Source: Acidimicrobiaceae bacterium
Lineage (GTDB): Bacteria; Actinomycetota; Acidimicrobiia; Acidimicrobiales; UBA8190
NCBI GenBank assembly: GCA_003151475.1
Contig: PLXQ01000017.1
Location: 1 to 64,000, forward strand
Direction of reading: 5' to 3'
Length of the DNA: 64,000 nt
Part shown: in pieces, positions 3,929-48,092 of the stretch
Position numbering within the stretch: the first letter of the stretch is position 1
How the letters are laid out: the number at the start of each line of letters is the position of its first letter
Made by a program: the position numbers and the translations under genes
Notes under the pieces: model-generated
What the model was told of the DNA's origin: nothing
The model's input: the letters and a program-made list of their open reading frames with translations, nothing else
Databases searched by the model: none

Positions 3929-4315
3929 CTACCTCTTTTGACACCCCTTTGCATTGCCGTTCCCAAGGGGTCTGTGACGGTTGTGGGACAGAATCTGACC
4001 GGCGTCGACGTCCGCATCAGGATGCACATCGGGCAGCCGCGCCCGACCAGCGTCGTTGTCGTGAGAAGGCGGCAGCGTTGACGGAGACGAGGCAGTGGAA
4101 GTGGCTGTGGCTGTGGCTGTGGCTGTGGCTGTGGCTGTGGCTGTGGTGAGACTCCCAAGACCGCGGGCGCAGGCGAGAGTCTTGGTACTCGCGCTGGGAG
4201 TACCAACGGAAGTGGATCGGCCGGCCGAGCACGCCGCCAGGAACACGGAGCCACCAAGGAGAGAGAGCGAGACGGCAGTGGGCGCGATCCAACGGATACC
4301 GAAGGGAAGACGCAC
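3929..4315 (-). CDS. Putative lipoprotein with a Thr-Ala repeat linker
   Basis: GTG start at 4315 with AGAAGGACG upstream at good spacing. Residues 1-30 form a signal peptide (basic start, hydrophobic SLSLLGGSVFL) ending in the lipobox L-A-A-C, so the mature protein would be lipid-anchored outside the membrane. A Thr-Ala dipeptide linker of about 7-8 units follows, encoded by the hexanucleotide array at 4101-4142. The roughly 50 residues after the linker have unusual composition and match nothing I know, so the gene may be frameshifted or truncated after the linker. It lies inside the decayed element beside tRNA-Val. Confidence 0.4.
   Translation of the reverse strand: MRLPFGIRWIAPTAVSLSLLGGSVFLAACSAGRSTSVGTPSASTKTLACARGLGSLTTATATATATATATATSTASSPSTLPPSHDNDAGRARLPDVHPDADVDAGQILSHNRHRPLGNGNAKGCQKR
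4101..4142 (+). repeat. Hexanucleotide tandem repeat, 7 x GTGGCT
   Basis: Seven perfect GTGGCT units, followed by another GTGG. On the minus strand it encodes the Thr-Ala linker of the putative lipoprotein. Because the unit is 6 bp, copy-number change would lengthen or shorten the linker by two residues without changing frame. Confidence 0.9.
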
Positions 4316-21680: not shown

Positions 21681-22304
21681 CTACCGCTGAGCATCACGGT
21701 CCGGGGGGCGCGGCTCGCGCCACATGAGCCAGAGGGTGGGGCCGCGCGGGGTGGTGATCTCCCCCGTGACCTCGAAACCGTGGCGGGCGTAGAAGGCGAG
21801 ATTCCTCTCCTTGGACGACTCGAGATAGGCGGGAAGGCCATCGGCATCGAGCCGGTCGAGGACGATACGCAGCAGGCTCGAGCCGACACCGTGGCCCTGC
21901 CGGTCGGGGTCGGTGCCCAAGGTGCCGAGATACCAGTGCTCCTGGCGGGGCCGGGCCCGTTCGTAGGCGGCCAGCAGATGGAGCACGTCGGCTGTCTTTC
22001 TCCCCCAGACCGACAGATAGGGCACGACGGGCAGGATGCGGACGAGGTCCATGGCGCCGGGGCGGGGCATGGTCGGGGGGGCCCAAAGCGCGGCGCCGGC
22101 GCAGTCGGGCGTCGTCCACACCTCGCCGTGACGGAGATAGGTGTGCCGCAGCTGGATGGCGAAGAACCGAGCCAGTCCCGTTGCTCTCGTACGCGGCCCG
22201 CCAAAAAGATAGAGCGAGAGGGGATCGTCGTCGAAGGCGCGCGCCAACAGCGCCGAGAGAACACTCACGTCGTCGGCCGAAGCCCGCAGCGCGGCGCTAT
22301 TCAA
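21681..22304 (-). CDS. GNAT-family N-acetyltransferase
   Basis: A 207-residue acyltransferase with the GNAT core. Strand 4 reads HWYLGTLGTDPDRQGHGVGSSLL (about residues 120-142), with the Q/R-x-x-G-x-G/A pyrophosphate loop; NLAFYARHGFEV follows near 169. It would transfer acetyl from acetyl-CoA to an amine; the substrate is unknown. The apparent start is TTG 22304, which falls in the first unit of a 17-bp repeat; a GTG about 12 codons downstream is an alternative. It is third in a minus-strand set after the ureidoglycolate-lyase-like and AlgH genes. Confidence 0.82.
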   Translation of the reverse strand: MNSAALRASADDVSVLSALLARAFDDDPLSLYLFGGPRTRATGLARFFAIQLRHTYLRHGEVWTTPDCAGAALWAPPTMPRPGAMDLVRILPVVPYLSVWGRKTADVLHLLAAYERARPRQEHWYLGTLGTDPDRQGHGVGSSLLRIVLDRLDADGLPAYLESSKERNLAFYARHGFEVTGEITTPRGPTLWLMWREPRPPDRDAQR

Positions 22305-22431
22305 TCGACTGTGCCGTCCAATTGACCGTGCCGTTCAATCGACTGTGCCGTTCAATCGACTGTGCCGTTCAATTGACTGTGCTGTTCCGTGCTCGTCAAT
22401 TGACGGTGCTGGTCAATTGACTCAATTGACC
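22302..22431 (+). repeat. 17-bp tandem repeat array between algH and GNAT genes
   Basis: Five contiguous 17-bp units of consensus CAATYGACYGTGCYGTY occupy 22302-22386. They are followed by a 10-bp spacer, a sixth unit at 22397-22413 and two truncated 9-bp units to 22431. The unit core (GTCAATTGAC where complete) is a 10-bp palindrome. The array starts at the GNAT start codon and ends over the algH stop codon, so it fills the intergenic space of the presumed operon. There are no unique spacers, so it is not a CRISPR. Confidence 0.9.
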
Positions 22432-39134: not shown

Positions 39135-42100
39135 ATGACGCCGACTCGAGGTAACGGCGGTCTGGCGCGCCTTGGTACCCGGCTGACTCTCGTGGCCATG
39201 GTCGGGGCCGGGGCCCTGTTGGTGCAGAGCCCCACAGCTCTCGCCGGCCCCTCCCCCTGTGGCACGCACGGCGTGCTGACGACGGCGGGCTCGACGGCAA
39301 CGTGCACCTACACCACGCAAGGTGAAAACACCTTCACCGTGCCGGCCAACGTGACGAGCGTGAGCATCAAGGCCGTCGGCGCGTCCGGTCTGCCGGGCCT
39401 ACCGGGCGGGGCTGGTGGCGCCGGCGCCACCGTGGCCTCGACTGTGGCTATCCCGACCAGCCAGAGCACTCTGTACGTTGAGGTCGACACGGGCAGTGGC
39501 GTCGGTGGCTTGGCTCCGGCGTCAGGTGGGACCGGAGGTGGCGCTTCCGACGTCCGCACGCAGCCGGCTAGCAGCGGTGGCTTGACGGCGGGATCCAGTG
39601 ACCCGCGCCTGATCGTCGCTGGTGGTGGTGGCGGCGGTGGCGGGGGTGGCGGGGGTAATAGCTTCTTCGGAACGGGTGGCGTCGGCGGATCGGCGGGCCT
39701 TCCCAGCGTCAATGGCGCTGGTGGCGGTTCCTGTGCGCAAGCGCCGGGGGGAACCGGTGGAACCGGCGCCGGTGGCGGCGCGGCCTGCGGCGACGGGAGC
39801 GCAGGCACGCCAGGTGCCGGAGGCGTCGGTGGCACCGGCCTGCCGTTCGGTAACGGTGGCGACGGGGGTGGCGGGGGTGGCGGCGGCTACGTCGGTGGTG
39901 GCGGGGGTGGGGGTGACCCCACGGGCACCAGCGGTGGTGGTGGCGGTGGCTCGAGCTTCTCCGGCGGAACGGGCACCACGATTGCCACGGACGCCACCGG
40001 TGTCCCGCTGATCGCCATCAGCTGGGTCCCCACGTCGACGGCGTCCCCTACCGGCGCCACCGTCTATGTCGCCAACCAGGTAAGTGCGAATGTCCTTCCC
40101 GTCGATGAGATCACGAATATCGCCGGCATCCCCACTCCCAGTGGCGGGTCGCCCATCGACATCTCGATTACCGGCGATGGCAGCACCGCCTGGGTGGCCG
40201 AGTCCTCCCCCGATGCCATCCACCCCATCAATCTGGCCACCGACACGGCTGGATCACCGATCTCCATCCCGGCAACCTCCCCCCTGGCCACCCTCGTGGT
40301 GACGAGCGACGGCACGACGGTGTACGTGGCTGACCAAAGCGGCTCCATCTATGCCGTGGACACGGCCGCGTCTTCCGTCTCTCTGTTCGCCAACGTGGAT
40401 TACACCGACATCGAACGGATGGTGCTCGCCCCGGACGGCTCCAACCTCTATGTGGTCAGCCGAGATCCGCAGAGCTCCGCCGGTGAGGTGTCTGACATCG
40501 CGCTCTCCGTAGGCGGTGAGAATGCCAATACGGTCCCGGTCTCGTTCCCCTCGGACCTGGCCATCAGCCCCGACGGGAGCCTCCTCTACGTCCTGAGCAG
40601 CAGTTGGCAGATCGACGTCATCGGCGCCGTGGGGACCGACGAAGGGTTCACTCAAACACGGACCATCTCTTTGCCGTCCACTGGCGTGGGCAATCCCTCG
40701 GAGATCGCCGTGTCACCCGACGGGGCGAGCGCCTACGTATCGGTCCCGGCCACAAACGGGCCGTCCGACCCCGGCACGATCGACGTCGTGGATCTCAGCG
40801 GCGGCGGTACCGAAGCCGTGGTGGGGGTCGGAATCGACCCCCTGGGCATTGCTGCAACACCCGACGGCGCCTACGTCTATGTCACCAACGAGGTCGACAA
40901 CACCCTCGACAAGATCGACGTGACAACGGACACCGTGGTGAAGACCATCGCCGTCGGAAACCAACCGGGTGCCCTGGCCATCGGCCCGGCGGCATCGTCG
41001 AGCGTGACCGCCTCGTTGTCCGCCGGGTCTCCCACCGTGGCCTCGGTGAACGCTGTGCCCGAGTCGGCACTCCCGGCCGCCGCGGTGGAGGGCGGCGCCT
41101 CGCCGGCCGGCTCCGGCAACGCCGCTTCGGCGCCCTTGCGGTCCATTCCCCTACGGTCGATCTCCCTCGGCTCCATCCCCCTGCGGTCGATCCCCCTGCG
41201 GTCGATCCCCCTGCGGTCCATCCCGGCCGCCGCCCGGGCCTTGTCGACCACGCTGCTGTCGAACCTGCCCCTTGAGTACCCACCCGGTTGCTCGGGCACC
41301 TCGTGTACCGGATGGTCGGGCGTGTTGGCGGGCACGGCGCTGGCCATCAATCCGCTCCAATCCACTTCTCTGGCCGACGTCCTGGCCGACCCGACCGCAT
41401 CGGCGCGCTTCGCGTCGGTGCCTCTGAGCGGTCTCGATGTCTCGAGCACGGCGCTGGCCTCACTACCGCTGGCGGCGGTCGCCCTGGCCGGGACGCCTCT
41501 GCGCTCCATTCCCCTACCCGGGGCGGGCGCCTCCGACAGCGATCGCCTGACGGCGTGGTGCACCCAGCTGGCCAGTATCGGGTTCGACTGCGCAAGCGAC
41601 TTCGGCATCAATCCCAGCGATCCGTCCACCGCGGAGAACGTCGACCTGCTCGCCCTCAGCCTCGCCGGAGTGCCATTGCGGTCGATCCCCTTGCGGTCCA
41701 TCGACCTGACATCGATCGATCTGACGTCCTCGCCCCTGGCCTCTTTACCGCTTCGCTCCATCACCCTGAGCAGCACGTCTCTGGGGTCGATCCCGCTGCG
41801 GTCGATCCCCTTGCGCTCGATCCCGCTGGGCGCCACCCCGCTACGGTCCATCGGCAACCTGTCGTCGGTCATCGACTGCACCCTGGTCGACTGCTCGACC
41901 GCGACGATCAGCGACGCCGTCACCGCCGGCGCCATTTTGTCCACCGCCACTCTGGCGCAACTGGCGACGCTCGACAGCACCGCGCTGGGATCGATTCCCC
42001 TCTCGTCGATCGACATGACGTCGAGCCCCCTGCGGTCGATCCCGCTGCGGTCCATCGACCTCACCTCGAGCCCGCTGCGGTCGATCCCGCTGCGGTCGAT

Positions 42101-45100
42101 CCCCTTGCGATCGATCCCTCTGGGCTCCATCCCGCTACGGTCCATCGGCAACCTGTCGTCGGTCATCGACTGCACCTTGGTCGACTGCTCGAGCGCAACA
42201 CTGGGTGACGCCGAAGCGGCTAACGCCGTGCTTCCCACCGCCACCTTGGCTCAGTTGACCACGCTCGACAGCGTCGCTCTCGGTTCGGTCCCTCTGCGGT
42301 CGATCGACCTCACGACCAGTCCCCTGCGGTCGATCCCCCTGCGATCCATCGGCACCCTCTCGTCGGTGGTCGACTGCACCAAGGTGGACTGCTCGGACAC
42401 GACCACGGCCACCCTCGGTGACGCGGCGGCGGCCAACGCCATCTTGGCCACCGCCTCACTGAACGACCTGGGCGCCTTCCTGGGCACCGCTCTCGGCGAC
42501 CTCGGCACCTACGGCCTCACCACCCTGGCCGATCTCGGGGCCTTCCTGGGAACGACGGTCGGACAACTCCTGGCCGGCATCAACAGCGCAGTCCCGGGCT
42601 TCCCGACTTTGACCCTGAGCGACCTCCTGGCCGGTCTCACGCCTCCGACGTCGTACCCGTGGCAGTCGGTCGACCTCACCACGATCCCGCTAGCCCAGTT
42701 CGAGAGCTCAGGGGGAACCGACACCTACACAGCCGCTCTCACCGTCAACGGGTCTTCGCCGACTCCGGTGAAGGTGACACTAACGCTGCCGGCCGGTTTC
42801 GCCTACCTCGCCGGTAGCGCCACCCTCGACGGAGGAGCGCTGCCTGATCCGGCGTCGACATCGTCACCTCTCGTGTGGGATCCCACAGTCAGCCCCGGAG
42901 CCCACACCCTGTCCGTGCATGTGGCGGCAGGCATCGGCCTCGGACCCGCCACGGCGCGTTTGACGGCACAGATCGGCACCAGCACGGCCGTCACCTCGTC
43001 GACCACGGTGACGGTGATCGACGGCCTGGACCCGAACAGCACACCAGCGTCGGCGTCTCCTTTGGCCACGGACAGCCTCAATCTCGGCTACCTCACCTCC
43101 GCCGGAGACCAAGACTTCTGGTCGGTTTCGGTGAGCCAGGGCGAGGAACTGGCCTTGTCACTGTCGAACCTTCCTGCCGACTACGACCTCACCCTGTTCG
43201 CGCCGAGCGGTCAGCAGCTACAGGGCGCGCCGGTCCAGCAGGCACCGGGCGTCACCGACGCGCCGCCGTCGCTCACCACTGAGCCCCAACCGGTGCCGGG
43301 AGGAAACGACGTCCCCACCGCGCCGCCTGCCGGCTACCAGCTCTACGCCCAGTCGAACAACCGGGGGACCGACGACGAGACCATCCAGACAACCCCACTC
43401 GACGCCGGCACCTACCTGATCCAAATCACCGGGTACAACGGGGCGTCGAGCCCCCAGCCGTATCTGCTGCGTTCGACGGCGGTGTCGTCGGGGGCGACAA
43501 CGACGTGCCCCGCCATCACCTACCCGAACCCGTTGCCGGCGGCGGCGGCGGCACCGACAATCGCCGCCGGAACGAACACGTTGTTCCTCGTGGACACGCA
43601 GCGACTGCGGGCCGCCTACGGCGACACGGCCGAAAGCCAGGTCATGTCCGCCCTAACGGCTGTGGCCGGCGACAGCGTCGACGGGGTGACGGGAGCGATC
43701 CTTCCCGTGGACAGCAGCAGCGCCGTCCAGAGCGCCTACAGCAGGTGGAACGACGGAGCCCATGCCAATCCCTGTTCCGTGGAGGCGGCCAACGGCGTGG
43801 TGACGGCCATCTCGGCGCTCGTCGACCAGGTCCGCCTCGCCCATCCGAACATCACCAATCTCGTCATCGTGGGCGCCGACGACCAGATCCCGTTCGCCCG
43901 GATCGCCGACGGGGCCACCCAGTCGAACGAACGCGACTACGCGGCGAGCACCTTCCCGGGCGAGAGCAACGTGCTGGCCAACACATTGGCCCAAGGTTTC
44001 TACATGAGTGACGACCCCTACAGCGCCACTCAGCCCCTGGCCGTGGGCAGCGCCACTCTCTACACTCCCCAGCTGGCCGTCGGCCGCCTGGTGGAAAACC
44101 CCACCCAGATCGTCGGGGCCCTCAACCGCTTTGTCTCGAGCCACGGCGTTCTGGACTCCTCGGCGGCACTTTCCACCGGCTACTCGTTTCTCACCTCGGG
44201 CGCCCAGCTGGTGGCGGCCAATCTGTCCAAGGTCAGCGGCCGCAACGTGGCCGACCTCATCAATGGATCTTGGACCCACGCACAGCTCAATCAGGCCCTC
44301 ACAGCCACACCCGTCCCCGGTCTCGACAGCATCAATGCCCATTTCGACTACTCGCGTGCACTCCCTGCCCTCGGAAACACCACCGGCGATCAGAGCGATC
44401 TGTTCACCACCACGGACATCAGGAGCGCGCCCACGAACACCTATGCGGGCCGGTTGCTCTTTTCGATGGGCTGTCACGCCGGTCTGACCGTCGACGATGC
44501 CGAAGTGGCATCGAGCGGGATCACCACGCCGGTCGACGACTGGGCCAAGACCTTCGCCGACAGTGGAGCCCTGTGGGTAGCCAACACCGGCTACGGATAC
44601 GGCGACACCGACACCGTGGCCTATTCCGCCCGTCTCATGGCCGGCTTCGCCAACAACCTCGACGGGTCCGTGAGTGTGGGAGCCGCCCTCACCGACGCCA
44701 AGCAGAGCTACGAAGCGGGCGACACCGTGCTGAGCGCCTATGACCTCAAAGCCATGATGGAGTCCACCTTCTACGGGTTGCCCATGTACCACCTGAACAG
44801 CACCCCGCCGGCGGCCACCCCACCCCCCGTCCCCCCGGTCATCCAGGGCGACCCGATCACGGGGCTGGCGTCGGCGTCGATCTCGCTGAGCCTGCCCATC
44901 GGGGCCGCTGCGGGCGACCTCGGCGTGCAGTCCACCACCGCCGGCCAGTACTACCAGGTGAACGGCTCGAATCCGTACAACGGCCAGACCCAGACAACCG
45001 AGTACCGACCGATCGAGCCGCTGGCTACCGTCGACGTGACCGAACCGTCTTCCCCGCCGGGCGCGCTGGCCCAGGTGGCCCACGGCGCACTCATCACTGC

Positions 45101-48092
45101 GCTCACTTCCACCGACGTCCATCCGATCACACCGGCCGTGGCCCAGCCCGATGTCGACTCGACGGGCAACGGCACACCGCCGGGTCTCGGTATCGACCCC
45201 TTCCCGGCCCAGCTCCAGCGGGTGGCGACCTACCAGAGCATCGGCACTGCCGGCGTCACCCAGCACCAACAGTTCGACTTCGTGGCCGGACAGTTCCTGC
45301 CCGACCCGAGCAACCCGGGACAGGGCAACCAACGGTTGTTCACCTCCGTGAACGCGTCGGTGCTGTACCAGGATCCGTCCAACACCGACTTCACCCCGGC
45401 CACCATCGAAACCACCGAGGCGTTCGTGGAGAGCGGTCGCTCCGACTTCGTCGTCAACGCCTCCGACCCGGGTGCGCCCATCAAACGGGTCCTCGTTCTG
45501 TACTCCGACGGGGCGTCTCCGGGTACCTGGACCGCCCTCGATCTCGCCTCGTCCGACGGCCAGCACTGGAGCGGCGCGGGGACGGCCACACCCAGCGGCA
45601 AGATCGCCTACTTCGTGCAAGTGGTGGACGCGGCCGGGAACGTGGCCGTGTCCTCCAACAAAGGCGCCTATTTCCCCGCCTTGGCTGTGCCCGGCGCGTC
45701 GGGCGGCATCGGAATCGACCTGGGGGGATCACCACAGGTCGGCGACTACTTCACCGGCCCGGTGACAGCCACCGTCAGTGGGCCGTCCGGCCTCAGCTTC
45801 ACCCTCGACGGCTCCCCGGCCCAACCGGTCCCGCCGGGCGGTCTGATTCCCGTCACCGGCGACGGCGCCCACCAGATCACGGTGACCGACAGCGCAGGTG
45901 ACACCGAAAGCCAGCTGATCCGTATCGATACCCTGCCGCCGGTGTTGTCCACGTCGGAAAGCCCGCCCCCGGTTGGCACCCGGCCCGGGTACCTGGCCCC
46001 GGGGGCGACCGTGAAGGTCGCCGCCACCGATGCGGGTTCGGGCGTCGCCTCGGTCACCTACAGCGAGAACGGGGGGCCCTCGATCCCGTTGGGCGCTTCG
46101 TCAGGAACGATCACCGTGGCCACCTCGGCCACCATCGTGATCACGGCGAGGGACCAAGTGGGCAACGTCGGCACCACCACGGTGGTGGCCAATGTCGACA
46201 GCGCCGCGCCAACCGCCGCTTGCACGGTCCCATCAGTCGCGTGGACGAACCACGACGTGTCGGTTGTGTGCGCCCTCTCCGACACCCAGTCGGGTCTCGC
46301 CAATCCCGAGCAGGCGACCACCACCCTCTCCACCAGCGTGCCGGCGGGGACGGCCACCGCCAGCGCCAGCACGAGCGCCGCCACTGTGTGCGACAAGGTC
46401 GGCAACTGCGGCGGGGTCGGGCCCTTCGGACCCTTCGAGGTGGACAAGAGTGCCCCGTCGGTAACGGCCCTCACGTCGATGACGCCCTCAGCGTCAGGCT
46501 TCGTCAAAGAGGGGTCGGCGCTCAACGTCTCGGGTAGCGATACCGGGTCGGGAGTGAAGACGATCACCTATCTGGCCACGGGCGCCCAAGCCGGCAGCGG
46601 CAACATATTCGCCGCCGGAGCCACCGACCCGCTCTCGGTGGCAACGTCACTGCTCCTCACGGCCCAAGGAACGACCACATTCGTATTCACGGCCACCGAC
46701 CTCGCCGGCAACGTCTCGTCTACGGCCACCGTAACGGTGAACGTCGACGCCACAGCGCCCACGGTCACGTGCGCAGTCCCGCCCGTCGCCTGGTCGGGCC
46801 ACGACGTGTCGGTGCCCTGCATCGTCACCGACGCCCTGTCGGGTCTCGCCTCTCCCTCGCAGTCGACAACCACGGTGACGACCACGGTTCCCGCCGGCAC
46901 AGCGACGGCGGCGGCGTCCACGAACACGGCGACGGTGTGTGACGAGGTCGGCAATTGCGCGACCGTGGGCCCGTTCGGCCCCTTCGAGGTGGACAAGAGT
47001 GTGCCGTCGGCGAGCGCCACCACTACCCCGGCGCCGTCGGCGTCAGGATGGGTACCAGGGACGACGATGCTCAATCTCGCAGCCACCGACACCGGCTCCG
47101 GCGTGCTGTCGATCACGTACACGCTTACGGGAGCACAGAGCGGGGGGGCCACCATTGCCGGCGCCTCGGGATCGGTGGCACTCACCACGGCCGGCACCAC
47201 GACCGTGCAAGTACACGCCACCGACAAGGTCGGCAACGTGTCGCCGACCACCACCCTGATCGTGAAGGACGACAAGCTCGGTCCCACCATCACCTGTACC
47301 CCGCCGACGTCCGCCACCTGGTCGGCGACCGATATATCGGTGCCATGCACGGCAACCGATAGCCAAGCGGGACTGTCCGCAGCATCTCCCACGCCGCAGT
47401 CGCCGTGGGGTTTCAGCTTGTCGACCAGTGTGGCGGTGGGGACAGAAACGGCCACCGCAACCACGGGCACCTTGAAGGTGTGCGACGAGGTGGGTAACTG
47501 CACGACGGCCGGTCCGTATGGGCCGTTCAAGGTAGACAAGAAGGCCCCGACCATCACCATCACCGCGCCCGTGGCGGGTTCCACCTACTTCGTGGGCCAG
47601 TCGGTGAAGGCGGCGTACACCTGCGGTGACGCCGGTTCGGGCCTGGCCTCTTGTACGGGCACGGTGACCAACGGCGCCGCCATTGCGACGAACACGGTGG
47701 GGTCCTACACCTTCACGGTGACAGCCAAGGACAAGGCCGGCAACACGGGGACGCAGACGGTGTCCTACACCGTGGCCAACAGGCTGTGCGCCGTGATCAG
47801 CCCGGCCCCGCAGTCTTCCTCGGCTGTGCTCTTCACCGTGCGGCTGTGCGACAGCCAGGGCCACAACCTGACCACCAACAAGACCGTCCTGACCGCAGCG
47901 CGGGTCGATGCCTCGGGAGCGCCGGTGTCGGTGATTCCGGATCCGAAAAACACCTTCTTCTTCGTTCCCGTCGTAAACACCGACATCTACATCCTGCAGG
48001 ACTCGAAGCTGGCTTCGGGCAGCCATATTCTCTACGTCACCGTGGCGGGCGACCCCGCCCTGCACCCGATCTCATTCACCGTGTCTCACTAG
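39135..48092 (+). CDS. Giant secreted multidomain protein: PLRSI repeats plus C25-like peptidase
   Basis: 2985 residues, ATG 39135 with a GGGGGGA site upstream. Order: signal peptide (1-37, ending A-L-A); glycine-rich domain (about 156-276); YVTN-type beta-propeller (about 306-619); PLRSI pentapeptide region (667-1072) with three inserted S-S-V-[IV]-D-C-T modules; leucine/glycine-rich helices; a DUF11-like domain (about 1194-1292); a PPC-like domain (about 1296-1446). Next is a caspase-fold peptidase resembling family C25 (about 1456-1889), with likely dyad H1736 (NAHFDYS) and C1780 (SMGCHAG). Then come OmpL47/Ig-like repeats (about 2209-2889), each with FGPFEVDK-type ends. No C-terminal anchor is visible. 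It is probably secreted or surface-held; role unknown (protease, adhesin or self-processing). Confidence 0.85.
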   Translation: MTPTRGNGGLARLGTRLTLVAMVGAGALLVQSPTALAGPSPCGTHGVLTTAGSTATCTYTTQGENTFTVPANVTSVSIKAVGASGLPGLPGGAGGAGATVASTVAIPTSQSTLYVEVDTGSGVGGLAPASGGTGGGASDVRTQPASSGGLTAGSSDPRLIVAGGGGGGGGGGGGNSFFGTGGVGGSAGLPSVNGAGGGSCAQAPGGTGGTGAGGGAACGDGSAGTPGAGGVGGTGLPFGNGGDGGGGGGGGYVGGGGGGGDPTGTSGGGGGGSSFSGGTGTTIATDATGVPLIAISWVPTSTASPTGATVYVANQVSANVLPVDEITNIAGIPTPSGGSPIDISITGDGSTAWVAESSPDAIHPINLATDTAGSPISIPATSPLATLVVTSDGTTVYVADQSGSIYAVDTAASSVSLFANVDYTDIERMVLAPDGSNLYVVSRDPQSSAGEVSDIALSVGGENANTVPVSFPSDLAISPDGSLLYVLSSSWQIDVIGAVGTDEGFTQTRTISLPSTGVGNPSEIAVSPDGASAYVSVPATNGPSDPGTIDVVDLSGGGTEAVVGVGIDPLGIAATPDGAYVYVTNEVDNTLDKIDVTTDTVVKTIAVGNQPGALAIGPAASSSVTASLSAGSPTVASVNAVPESALPAAAVEGGASPAGSGNAASAPLRSIPLRSISLGSIPLRSIPLRSIPLRSIPAAARALSTTLLSNLPLEYPPGCSGTSCTGWSGVLAGTALAINPLQSTSLADVLADPTASARFASVPLSGLDVSSTALASLPLAAVALAGTPLRSIPLPGAGASDSDRLTAWCTQLASIGFDCASDFGINPSDPSTAENVDLLALSLAGVPLRSIPLRSIDLTSIDLTSSPLASLPLRSITLSSTSLGSIPLRSIPLRSIPLGATPLRSIGNLSSVIDCTLVDCSTATISDAVTAGAILSTATLAQLATLDSTALGSIPLSSIDMTSSPLRSIPLRSIDLTSSPLRSIPLRSIPLRSIPLGSIPLRSIGNLSSVIDCTLVDCSSATLGDAEAANAVLPTATLAQLTTLDSVALGSVPLRSIDLTTSPLRSIPLRSIGTLSSVVDCTKVDCSDTTTATLGDAAAANAILATASLNDLGAFLGTALGDLGTYGLTTLADLGAFLGTTVGQLLAGINSAVPGFPTLTLSDLLAGLTPPTSYPWQSVDLTTIPLAQFESSGGTDTYTAALTVNGSSPTPVKVTLTLPAGFAYLAGSATLDGGALPDPASTSSPLVWDPTVSPGAHTLSVHVAAGIGLGPATARLTAQIGTSTAVTSSTTVTVIDGLDPNSTPASASPLATDSLNLGYLTSAGDQDFWSVSVSQGEELALSLSNLPADYDLTLFAPSGQQLQGAPVQQAPGVTDAPPSLTTEPQPVPGGNDVPTAPPAGYQLYAQSNNRGTDDETIQTTPLDAGTYLIQITGYNGASSPQPYLLRSTAVSSGATTTCPAITYPNPLPAAAAAPTIAAGTNTLFLVDTQRLRAAYGDTAESQVMSALTAVAGDSVDGVTGAILPVDSSSAVQSAYSRWNDGAHANPCSVEAANGVVTAISALVDQVRLAHPNITNLVIVGADDQIPFARIADGATQSNERDYAASTFPGESNVLANTLAQGFYMSDDPYSATQPLAVGSATLYTPQLAVGRLVENPTQIVGALNRFVSSHGVLDSSAALSTGYSFLTSGAQLVAANLSKVSGRNVADLINGSWTHAQLNQALTATPVPGLDSINAHFDYSRALPALGNTTGDQSDLFTTTDIRSAPTNTYAGRLLFSMGCHAGLTVDDAEVASSGITTPVDDWAKTFADSGALWVANTGYGYGDTDTVAYSARLMAGFANNLDGSVSVGAALTDAKQSYEAGDTVLSAYDLKAMMESTFYGLPMYHLNSTPPAATPPPVPPVIQGDPITGLASASISLSLPIGAAAGDLGVQSTTAGQYYQVNGSNPYNGQTQTTEYRPIEPLATVDVTEPSSPPGALAQVAHGALITALTSTDVHPITPAVAQPDVDSTGNGTPPGLGIDPFPAQLQRVATYQSIGTAGVTQHQQFDFVAGQFLPDPSNPGQGNQRLFTSVNASVLYQDPSNTDFTPATIETTEAFVESGRSDFVVNASDPGAPIKRVLVLYSDGASPGTWTALDLASSDGQHWSGAGTATPSGKIAYFVQVVDAAGNVAVSSNKGAYFPALAVPGASGGIGIDLGGSPQVGDYFTGPVTATVSGPSGLSFTLDGSPAQPVPPGGLIPVTGDGAHQITVTDSAGDTESQLIRIDTLPPVLSTSESPPPVGTRPGYLAPGATVKVAATDAGSGVASVTYSENGGPSIPLGASSGTITVATSATIVITARDQVGNVGTTTVVANVDSAAPTAACTVPSVAWTNHDVSVVCALSDTQSGLANPEQATTTLSTSVPAGTATASASTSAATVCDKVGNCGGVGPFGPFEVDKSAPSVTALTSMTPSASGFVKEGSALNVSGSDTGSGVKTITYLATGAQAGSGNIFAAGATDPLSVATSLLLTAQGTTTFVFTATDLAGNVSSTATVTVNVDATAPTVTCAVPPVAWSGHDVSVPCIVTDALSGLASPSQSTTTVTTTVPAGTATAAASTNTATVCDEVGNCATVGPFGPFEVDKSVPSASATTTPAPSASGWVPGTTMLNLAATDTGSGVLSITYTLTGAQSGGATIAGASGSVALTTAGTTTVQVHATDKVGNVSPTTTLIVKDDKLGPTITCTPPTSATWSATDISVPCTATDSQAGLSAASPTPQSPWGFSLSTSVAVGTETATATTGTLKVCDEVGNCTTAGPYGPFKVDKKAPTITITAPVAGSTYFVGQSVKAAYTCGDAGSGLASCTGTVTNGAAIATNTVGSYTFTVTAKDKAGNTGTQTVSYTVANRLCAVISPAPQSSSAVLFTVRLCDSQGHNLTTNKTVLTAARVDASGAPVSVIPDPKNTFFFVPVVNTDIYILQDSKLASGSHILYVTVAGDPALHPISFTVSH
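41133..42350 (+). repeat. Pentapeptide PLRSI-coding repeat region
   Basis: A 15-bp unit (roughly CTGCGGTCGATCCCC) encoding P-L-R-S-I is repeated; I count 21 exact PLRSI copies in several runs, mixed with variants such as DLTSS, SLGSI, PLGSI and PLASL. Runs are separated by copies of a module of about 50 residues containing L-S-S-V-[IV]-D-C-T-x-V-D-C-S. In the pentapeptide-repeat register, I, P, L, R, S would place Ile and Leu inside a right-handed beta-helix. Confidence 0.9.

Follow-up and report, generated by a model that had tools for sequence, protein, structure and literature searches.

A pentapeptide repeat with one unit family per gene in a giant, putatively secreted gingipain-like protease of Acidimicrobiaceae

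Runs of the pentapeptide PLRSI mark the gene P0001 in a DNA stretch of 64,000 nucleotides from an Acidimicrobiaceae bacterium (assembly GCA_003151475.1, contig PLXQ01000017.1, positions 1 to 64,000 of the forward strand), referred to below as the window. P0001 is a single open frame on the + strand (39135–48092), predicted to encode a giant secreted gingipain-like protease of 2985 aa with a pentapeptide arm. The repeat is genuine and keeps the reading frame, and by sequence comparison it belongs to a protein family with a conserved core. Each gene of the family uses one family of units, and the units are under selection at the protein level. The cysteines are paired in the sequence, the interruptions of the runs are spaced by three units across the family, and a neighbouring gene is conserved. 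The explanation proposed here, which we hold to be evenly poised, is that the repeat may serve a giant secreted C25 protease as a rigid arm, a solenoid with three units per coil that is stapled by cysteines, and that the protease may be coupled to a cyclase. Three-sided fold, disulphides, side-chain stacking, secretion, protease activity, arm role and regulatory link are all parts that we infer.

The original prediction placed the repeat at 41133–42350. Both limits are exact to the base: the runs start with aa 667 at 41133 and finish with aa 1072 at 42350, all within a single open frame. The feature goes on, however, to about 42700, and the pentapeptide region is, by comparison with relatives, one part of a giant putative secreted protease, larger than first stated. 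Runs were defined as at least three in-phase pentapeptide units. Five have been identified, all on the + strand: run 1 (aa 667–696, 41133–41222), run 2 (aa 773–797, 41451–41525), run 3 (aa 837–906, 41643–41852), run 4 (aa 945–1004, 41967–42146) and run 5 (aa 1043–1072, 42261–42350). They total 43 units, 21 of which are PLRSI, in 15 different DNA spellings. Position 2 is L in 42 units and M in one, and position 4 is S in 36 of 43. The longest contiguous stretch counted, in run 3, measures 14 in-phase units. The variants DLTSS, SLGSI and PLASL, named in the prediction, are all present. Tandem Repeats Finder reports periods of 15, 45 and 294 bp in the region; the duplication with the ~294-bp period spans 41781–42351, in 1.9 copies. 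The predicted alignment of I-P-L-R-S with the register of canonical pentapeptide repeats holds, as phmmer pairs I with A, P with D/N, and L with L. Among solved structures, the P0001 repeat matched a designed pentapeptide-repeat protein (4yfo, E 2.2e-5), and natural HetL (3du1) only at E 0.12.

Relatives were collected from genomes of the same order (15 stretches) and by a scan of named genomes, which yielded 159 stretches encoding a relative; the best 80 were retained. After removal of 10 named loci on contigs already present in the first group, the set comprises 86 genes, 51 with runs and 35 without a qualifying run; genes are denoted below by the number of their locus. In Actinomycetota the family core includes pentapeptide runs, paired-cysteine modules, a DUF11-like segment, a PPC domain and the C25 protease, and the Chloroflexota form consists of the protease plus a run. 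Whole-core members among the relatives of the same order feature a fixed order: run, GGW block, run, W-C-x-C module, run, D-C-x-C module, W-E/Q anchor (lacking in some), DUF11-like segment, PPC domain, protease. A search for the repeat elsewhere, which the prediction had called for, led to a family of homologous proteins, but not to unrelated ones.

The 51 genes with runs use 37 different units, and none carries a second unrelated tandem unit. P is found at the first position in 28 of the 37 units, L, I, V, F or M at the second in 36, and I, V, L, S or T at the fifth in all 37. In 28 of the 51 genes the same unit is found in runs separated by 25 aa or more, and in L024 the PLRSV unit recurs even inside the PPC loop, the site of the Chloroflexota runs. 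Perfect runs reside in this loop, just before the protease, in the Chloroflexota genes L084 (SVGRS, aa 1050–1089), L096 (PFQLS, aa 95–209) and L076 (PLQNI, aa 1344–1398), same site and different units. The unit of L052 (GHTGV, aa 118–162 and 378–442) has His but no Pro; L052 is otherwise a typical member.

Uniformity of this sort could arise as a by-product, through slippage and gene conversion in the absence of selection on the protein. Sisters do change units (PLRSI in the window, PLSSI in L022 and PLASI in L037; PIRFS in L034 and L059, PLRAV in L069), and in four genes identical units differ by few codons (L069 0.20, L022 0.32, L034 0.39 and L037 0.40 of the random expectation); these four look like recent amplifications. 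In most genes, however, synonymous sites are near random. Among genes with at least six units, codon differences between identical units reach a median of 0.84 of the random-codon expectation for the same gene (49 genes). With codons this close to random between units of one sequence, it is selection on the protein that keeps the units alike; slippage alone was rejected on this ground, and the by-product explanation is hardly credible. The ratio of non-synonymous to synonymous differences per site (pN/pS), calculated on all in-phase units, lies under 1 in 48 of 50 genes (the other two are L051, 1.07, and L069, 1.48), with a median of 0.44, though pN is inflated by the two codon groups of serine. 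L096 is an extreme case, with pS 0.73 and pN 0.012 over 23 in-phase units. In the window the ratio is 0.43 (pN 0.225, pS 0.519, 30 in-phase units), the outcome anticipated by the prediction, which had set structural selection against DNA slippage. The window also retains some duplication history, since codon differences between its identical units are 0.75 of random (0.441 vs 0.591 expected, 20 units), a point in the opposite direction. Taken together, the order of events may be a replacement of the unit in a burst, followed by long conservation at the protein level.

Units interrupting the runs, often of the form D-L-x-G/S-T/S, provide a measure of the coil period and the best clue to the structure. 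The test used interrupting units whose last residue is T, S or A, one of three classes tried, all of which peak at period 3. Pairs at multiples of three units (15 residues) number 160 out of 320, vs a null of 96.0 (standard deviation, sd, 6.9). Distances of 3, 9 and 12 units are enriched, 6 is slightly raised, and 1 and 2 are depleted. Analysis of unit identity by autocorrelation in 90 family runs gave z +3.6 at lag 3 and z -0.2 at lag 4. In 41 canonical pentapeptide runs of the same order (568 units), used as control, identity peaks at lag 4 (z +5.5), as does central Phe (27 vs 13.0). The three-unit spacing of interruptions in the family, set against the autocorrelation peak at four units in canonical proteins, suggests that the runs form a three-sided coil, with 15 residues per turn.

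An alternative is that the arm is an ordinary Rfr solenoid, with four units per coil and an odd Pro at position i-1, in which the three-unit spacing stems from repeated 45-bp duplications. The repeat register agrees with that of designed pentapeptide proteins, 45-bp tandem periods are found in the window, and weak profile matches exist, to NCBIfam penta_Alr5209 (E 2.4e-4, 21 bits against a cut-off of 125) and, in L045, to Pentapeptide_4 (19.3 bits, cut-off 38). The three-unit signal, however, holds for pairs differing at three or more of the five residues (113 of 256 at multiples of three vs a null of 76.5, sd 6.3). It also holds after merging close kin by hand: in 17 informative clusters (pairs differing at two or more residues) period 3 is up in 14 and down in 3 (p 0.006), period 4 up in 11 and down in 6 (p 0.17). 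The different peak lags of canonical and family runs, and the lack of any match of P0001 to Pfam pentapeptide models at E <= 0.01, also speak against this alternative, which we consider possible, though rather unlikely.

Several results weigh against the three-sided coil. Canonical runs also feature a small identity excess at lag 3 (z +2.9). The family has a weak overall excess at period 4 (82 vs 68.1, sd 6.0, p 0.02), and interruptions in L047 (PIANL, aa 2022–2171) occur every four units; both fit the ordinary solenoid. L047 may be a four-sided member, or may result from an eight-unit duplication. In the window alone, one of three informative pairs falls at a multiple of three. AlphaFold2, run on the window arm with an alignment of 16 rows, returned a predicted local distance difference test (pLDDT) of 65.7 and a predicted template-modelling score (pTM) of 0.38. 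The arm of L036, a relative with imperfect repeats, was also modelled with low to middling confidence. Foldseek gave no match to the window arm model at E <= 0.001, the sole match having E 9.2, and VIA-align, with only four candidates, gave nothing. AlphaFold2 is moreover described as predicting solenoids too readily when repeats are perfect (PMC11795689).

A regular helix of strands, whose absence the prediction would have taken as a refutation, is neither plainly shown nor plainly contradicted by this low-confidence model, in which LRS forms short helical turns of three residues and single bridges stand in place of strands. In three runs Pro bridges lie 15 residues apart, at model positions 18–33, 233–248 and 331–346, and 30 apart at 203–233; pLDDT exceeds 80 only at the pair 331–346, and within the cysteine modules the spacing of bridges is 5, 10 and 11. 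This 15-residue spacing supports the coil weakly, because of the bias of AlphaFold2 toward solenoids for repeats.

Low confidence, together with Pro at every fifth residue, would fit a flexible, mostly unfolded Pro-rich linker or stalk, repetitive because only composition and length matter; some repeats of this kind are called disordered by other predictors, as reported in PMC11795689. Such a linker would not need position 2 to be hydrophobic almost throughout, as in 42 of 43 window units (L), nor interruptions in phase, nor exact identity of units despite near-random codons, which exceeds what composition requires. We regard the linker as improbable. An arm acting as substrate of the protease through its Arg was rejected as a general role, because units such as PLGAI, PLSAI and PISSL have no charged residue.

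Modules with two cysteines alternate with the runs, as predicted, though not as the single V-D-C-T-x-V-D-C-S type then described: two kinds coexist. P0001 has one W-C-x9-C module, WC (C809/C819, 41550–41639), in which each Cys is conserved in at least 90% of alignment rows, and three D-C-x4-C modules, DC 1 (C915/C920, 41853–41966), DC 2 (C1013/C1018, 42147–42260) and DC 3 (C1081/C1086, 42351–42470). DC 2 is a copy made by the ~294-bp duplication, and its aligned pair is invariant in 14 of 14 rows. An earlier extra pair (C719/C724) lies in the block with the family motif GW...L.GT...PLQ (41280–41414), for a total of five pairs. Pairing is borne out family-wide. The number of cysteines in the run region is even in all 43 genes counted, which are the 51 with runs minus eight Chloroflexota genes with PPC-loop runs; five of the 43 have none in the counted stretch. 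Most of these cysteines (168 of 172) are paired at 18 residues or less, commonly at 5 or 10, and the last pair is kept in 14 of 14 aligned cores. Disulphides within pairs are likely, because counts are even and the cysteines closely paired. Conserved cysteine pairs in which no disulphides are seen are described in Knotted Solenoid proteins (PMC13123833).

The arm can be compared with known solenoids. Pentapeptide repeat proteins (Rfr, PF00805; HetL, Alr5209) share with it the five-residue repeat, the central Leu and the A-(D/N)-L-x-x register, and many family interruptions start with D, as in these proteins. They differ as family units mostly have Pro at i-1 and a bulky I/V at i-2, with one fixed unit per gene and interruptions three rather than four units apart. 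Pentapeptide repeat proteins are defined in PMC8145042 by at least 8 contiguous consensus pentapeptides, Pro being outside the position-2 consensus; run 3 has 14 contiguous in-phase units, but with Pro at that position. Judged by family periodicity, L047 excepted, a turn would take three units and not four. The arm would work like a pentapeptide solenoid, falling outside the quadrilateral family on this indirect coil test. That the repeat is a new class, as had been suggested, is plausible, though for a reason absent from the prediction, the apparent three-unit coil period. According to PMC8145042, pentapeptide proteins were at one time predicted to form a triangular helix, which later turned out to be wrong for them. 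The Knotted Solenoid fold is likewise described as a triangular coil related to pentapeptide proteins, with conserved cysteine pairs; in contrast to the long runs on a putative secreted protease seen here, its members, compared by description, are homodimers, many from Brevundimonas (PMC13123833).

Triangular insect antifreeze solenoids also have 15 residues per coil, five per face, but carry a TxT ice-binding motif that the dominant family units lack.

The assignment to the gingipain-like C25 proteases comes from relatives. The Pfam C25 profile (PF01364, cut-off 23 bits) is exceeded by L045 (48.7 bits) and L098 (24.8 bits); L031 scores 21 bits, and L068, L022, L024 and L025 are also under the cut-off. 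P0001 itself has no Pfam C25 match at E <= 0.01 and aligns with relatives over the domain (43605–44855). A His and a Cys, H1736 and C1780 in P0001, are invariant in 13 of 13 aligned protease domains, and are the putative catalytic pair. The L036 model, informative mainly for the protease domain, has gingipain K (4rbm, E 2.3e-7) as best Foldseek match. The family thus shares with gingipains the His/Cys dyad, PF01364 in relatives and the modelled fold, and differs from them in residing in Actinomycetota and Chloroflexota, and in having a long pentapeptide arm and a PPC domain ahead of the protease. P0001 would be secreted and active as a protease. A putative signal peptide (aa 1–38, 39135–39248) was recognized by inspection (Arg-rich start, hydrophobic stretch, A-x-A), and a crude pattern is also positive in 31 of 34 relatives with the frame start covered.

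Other P0001 regions flank the arm. A beta-propeller-like region, with bounds set by eye (aa 305–650, 40047–41084), matches NCBIfam beta_rpt_yvtn and related models, and surface layer protein 1l0q (E 6.9e-26); a Gly-rich stretch is also present by profile or inspection. Downstream of the modules are a Leu-rich TLxxL segment, a W-Q anchor and a DUF11-like beta domain (42471–43064), named by inspection and conserved across the family, with beta strands in the L036 model. The PPC domain (aa 1325–1433, 43107–43433) matches PF04151 at E 6e-5, under the curated cut-off. C-terminal Ig-like/OmpL47-type repeats (45759–47774) match NF047446 in three stretches (E 1.1e-29).

The retained stretches come mostly from metagenome-assembled genomes (MAGs) of Acidimicrobiia, and also from Ilumatobacter nonamiensis, two Nocardioides, a Dehalococcoidia, a Thermoleophilia and many Chloroflexota; named strains are N. 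limicola DJM-14, N. marmorisolisilvae KIS18-7 and I. nonamiensis YM16-303. In 298 genomes of the same order the repeat region found matches in 38 at E <= 0.001. This figure was not taken as family size, because some matches are canonical pentapeptide proteins, such as G029:C25, which also matches PF00805; the protease profile, found in 23 of the 298, was used. In the tree, from which 17 of the 86 genes are left out, P0001 clusters with L022 and L037 with full support (best identity 65%). L069, labelled as a Rhodobacteraceae MAG, groups within Acidimicrobiales relatives, and the label is probably due to contamination. Plasmid and viral origins were rejected, as tblastn against plasmids gave no match and no relative was confirmed in viral contigs. 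Searches of the open-licence literature for unit strings, C25/cyclase/TPR combinations, Acidimicrobiia pentapeptides, Chloroflexi gingipains, STAND/caspase/cyclase systems, three-sided pentapeptide solenoids and the eta-helix found no description of the family.

P0002 (48123–52049, + strand, 1308 aa) begins 31 bp downstream of P0001, and carries class III cyclase domains, an AAA_16 ATPase domain and tetratricopeptide repeats (TPRs), according to Pfam. In 48 of 85 loci a homologue is found on the stretch that encodes the protease, also next to Chloroflexota genes that have no runs. All four relative orientations occur (14, 15, 10 and 9), and the gap is 600 bp or less in 41 loci, some with overlapping frames (e.g. 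L033, L040). Strong protease matches were set at E below 1e-110, a limit chosen after a gap showed in the list, and partners at E <= 1e-100. On these terms, among the 298 genomes the partner is found in 16 of 18 with a strong protease and in 9 of 280 others (Fisher p 2e-18); over all 23 protease genomes it is found in 16 (p 3e-15). Protease and partner share a contig in 14 of 16 genomes. Against a fixed pairing, 37 of 85 loci have no partner; in 15 of these both flanks are shorter than 1500 bp. The source genome has one other P0002 homologue, remote (30% over part). L067 has two protease-motif matches in one frame, with two partner homologues around, which suggests a duplicated protease/partner system. 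The neighbour is conserved, and a regulatory link between protease and cyclase may be supposed from it.

The two genes might also form a defence or cell-death pair, in which the cyclase-AAA-TPR protein senses attack and the protease is the effector. The P0002 cyclase domains match Pycsar cyclase models in PADLOC (best E 6.8e-7), and the conflict systems described in PMC7159879 include pairings of caspase-fold proteases with STAND and cyclase proteins. Cyclase homology alone could yield such scores, however; a Pycsar system joins a cyclase to an effector sensing cyclic nucleotides, and only a PycC-like cyclase domain was found, P0001 having no PADLOC match. The signal peptide seen by inspection and the extracellular-type domains of P0001, and the failure to confirm relatives in viral contigs, make a defence role very unlikely.

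Other tandem repeats in the window lie outside P0001: a 17-bp repeat at 22300–22387 (5.2 copies, TTCAATCGACTGTGCCG) and a perfect GTGGCT hexamer array at 4101–4146 (7.7 copies), both found by Tandem Repeats Finder.

In the rigid-arm explanation, the runs would form a narrow solenoid, each coil made of three pentapeptides (15 residues), with side chains pointing inward at positions 2 and 5 and outward at positions 3 and 4. The modules of paired cysteines, probably joined by disulphides, would staple the solenoid between runs, and the arm would keep the protease and its accessory domains off the cell or against a target. Stacking of identical side chains along each face would hold all units of a gene alike. 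Replacing the unit of a gene would require a burst of DNA amplification, after which the unit would be long preserved. Production or activity of the protease would be coupled to the neighbouring cyclase-AAA-TPR signalling protein. A wider claim, held somewhat more tentatively, is that pentapeptides have a second solenoid fold, in which a turn takes three units and each gene has one unit, locked by stacking and changed wholesale. This fold would form the arm, stapled by disulphides, in a protease/cyclase system of two genes that Actinomycetota and Chloroflexota share.

Repeat proteins are usually homogenised at the DNA level, or their units drift freely. A different unit held constant in each gene, with codons near random, is a natural experiment on the interdependence of units in solenoids. 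Should the coil be three-sided, the family would offer the triangular helix of pentapeptides put forward in 1998, and PLxxI would be a simple scaffold code in design. A testable lead to the role of putatively secreted gingipain-like proteases in environmental bacteria comes from the conserved cyclase neighbour.

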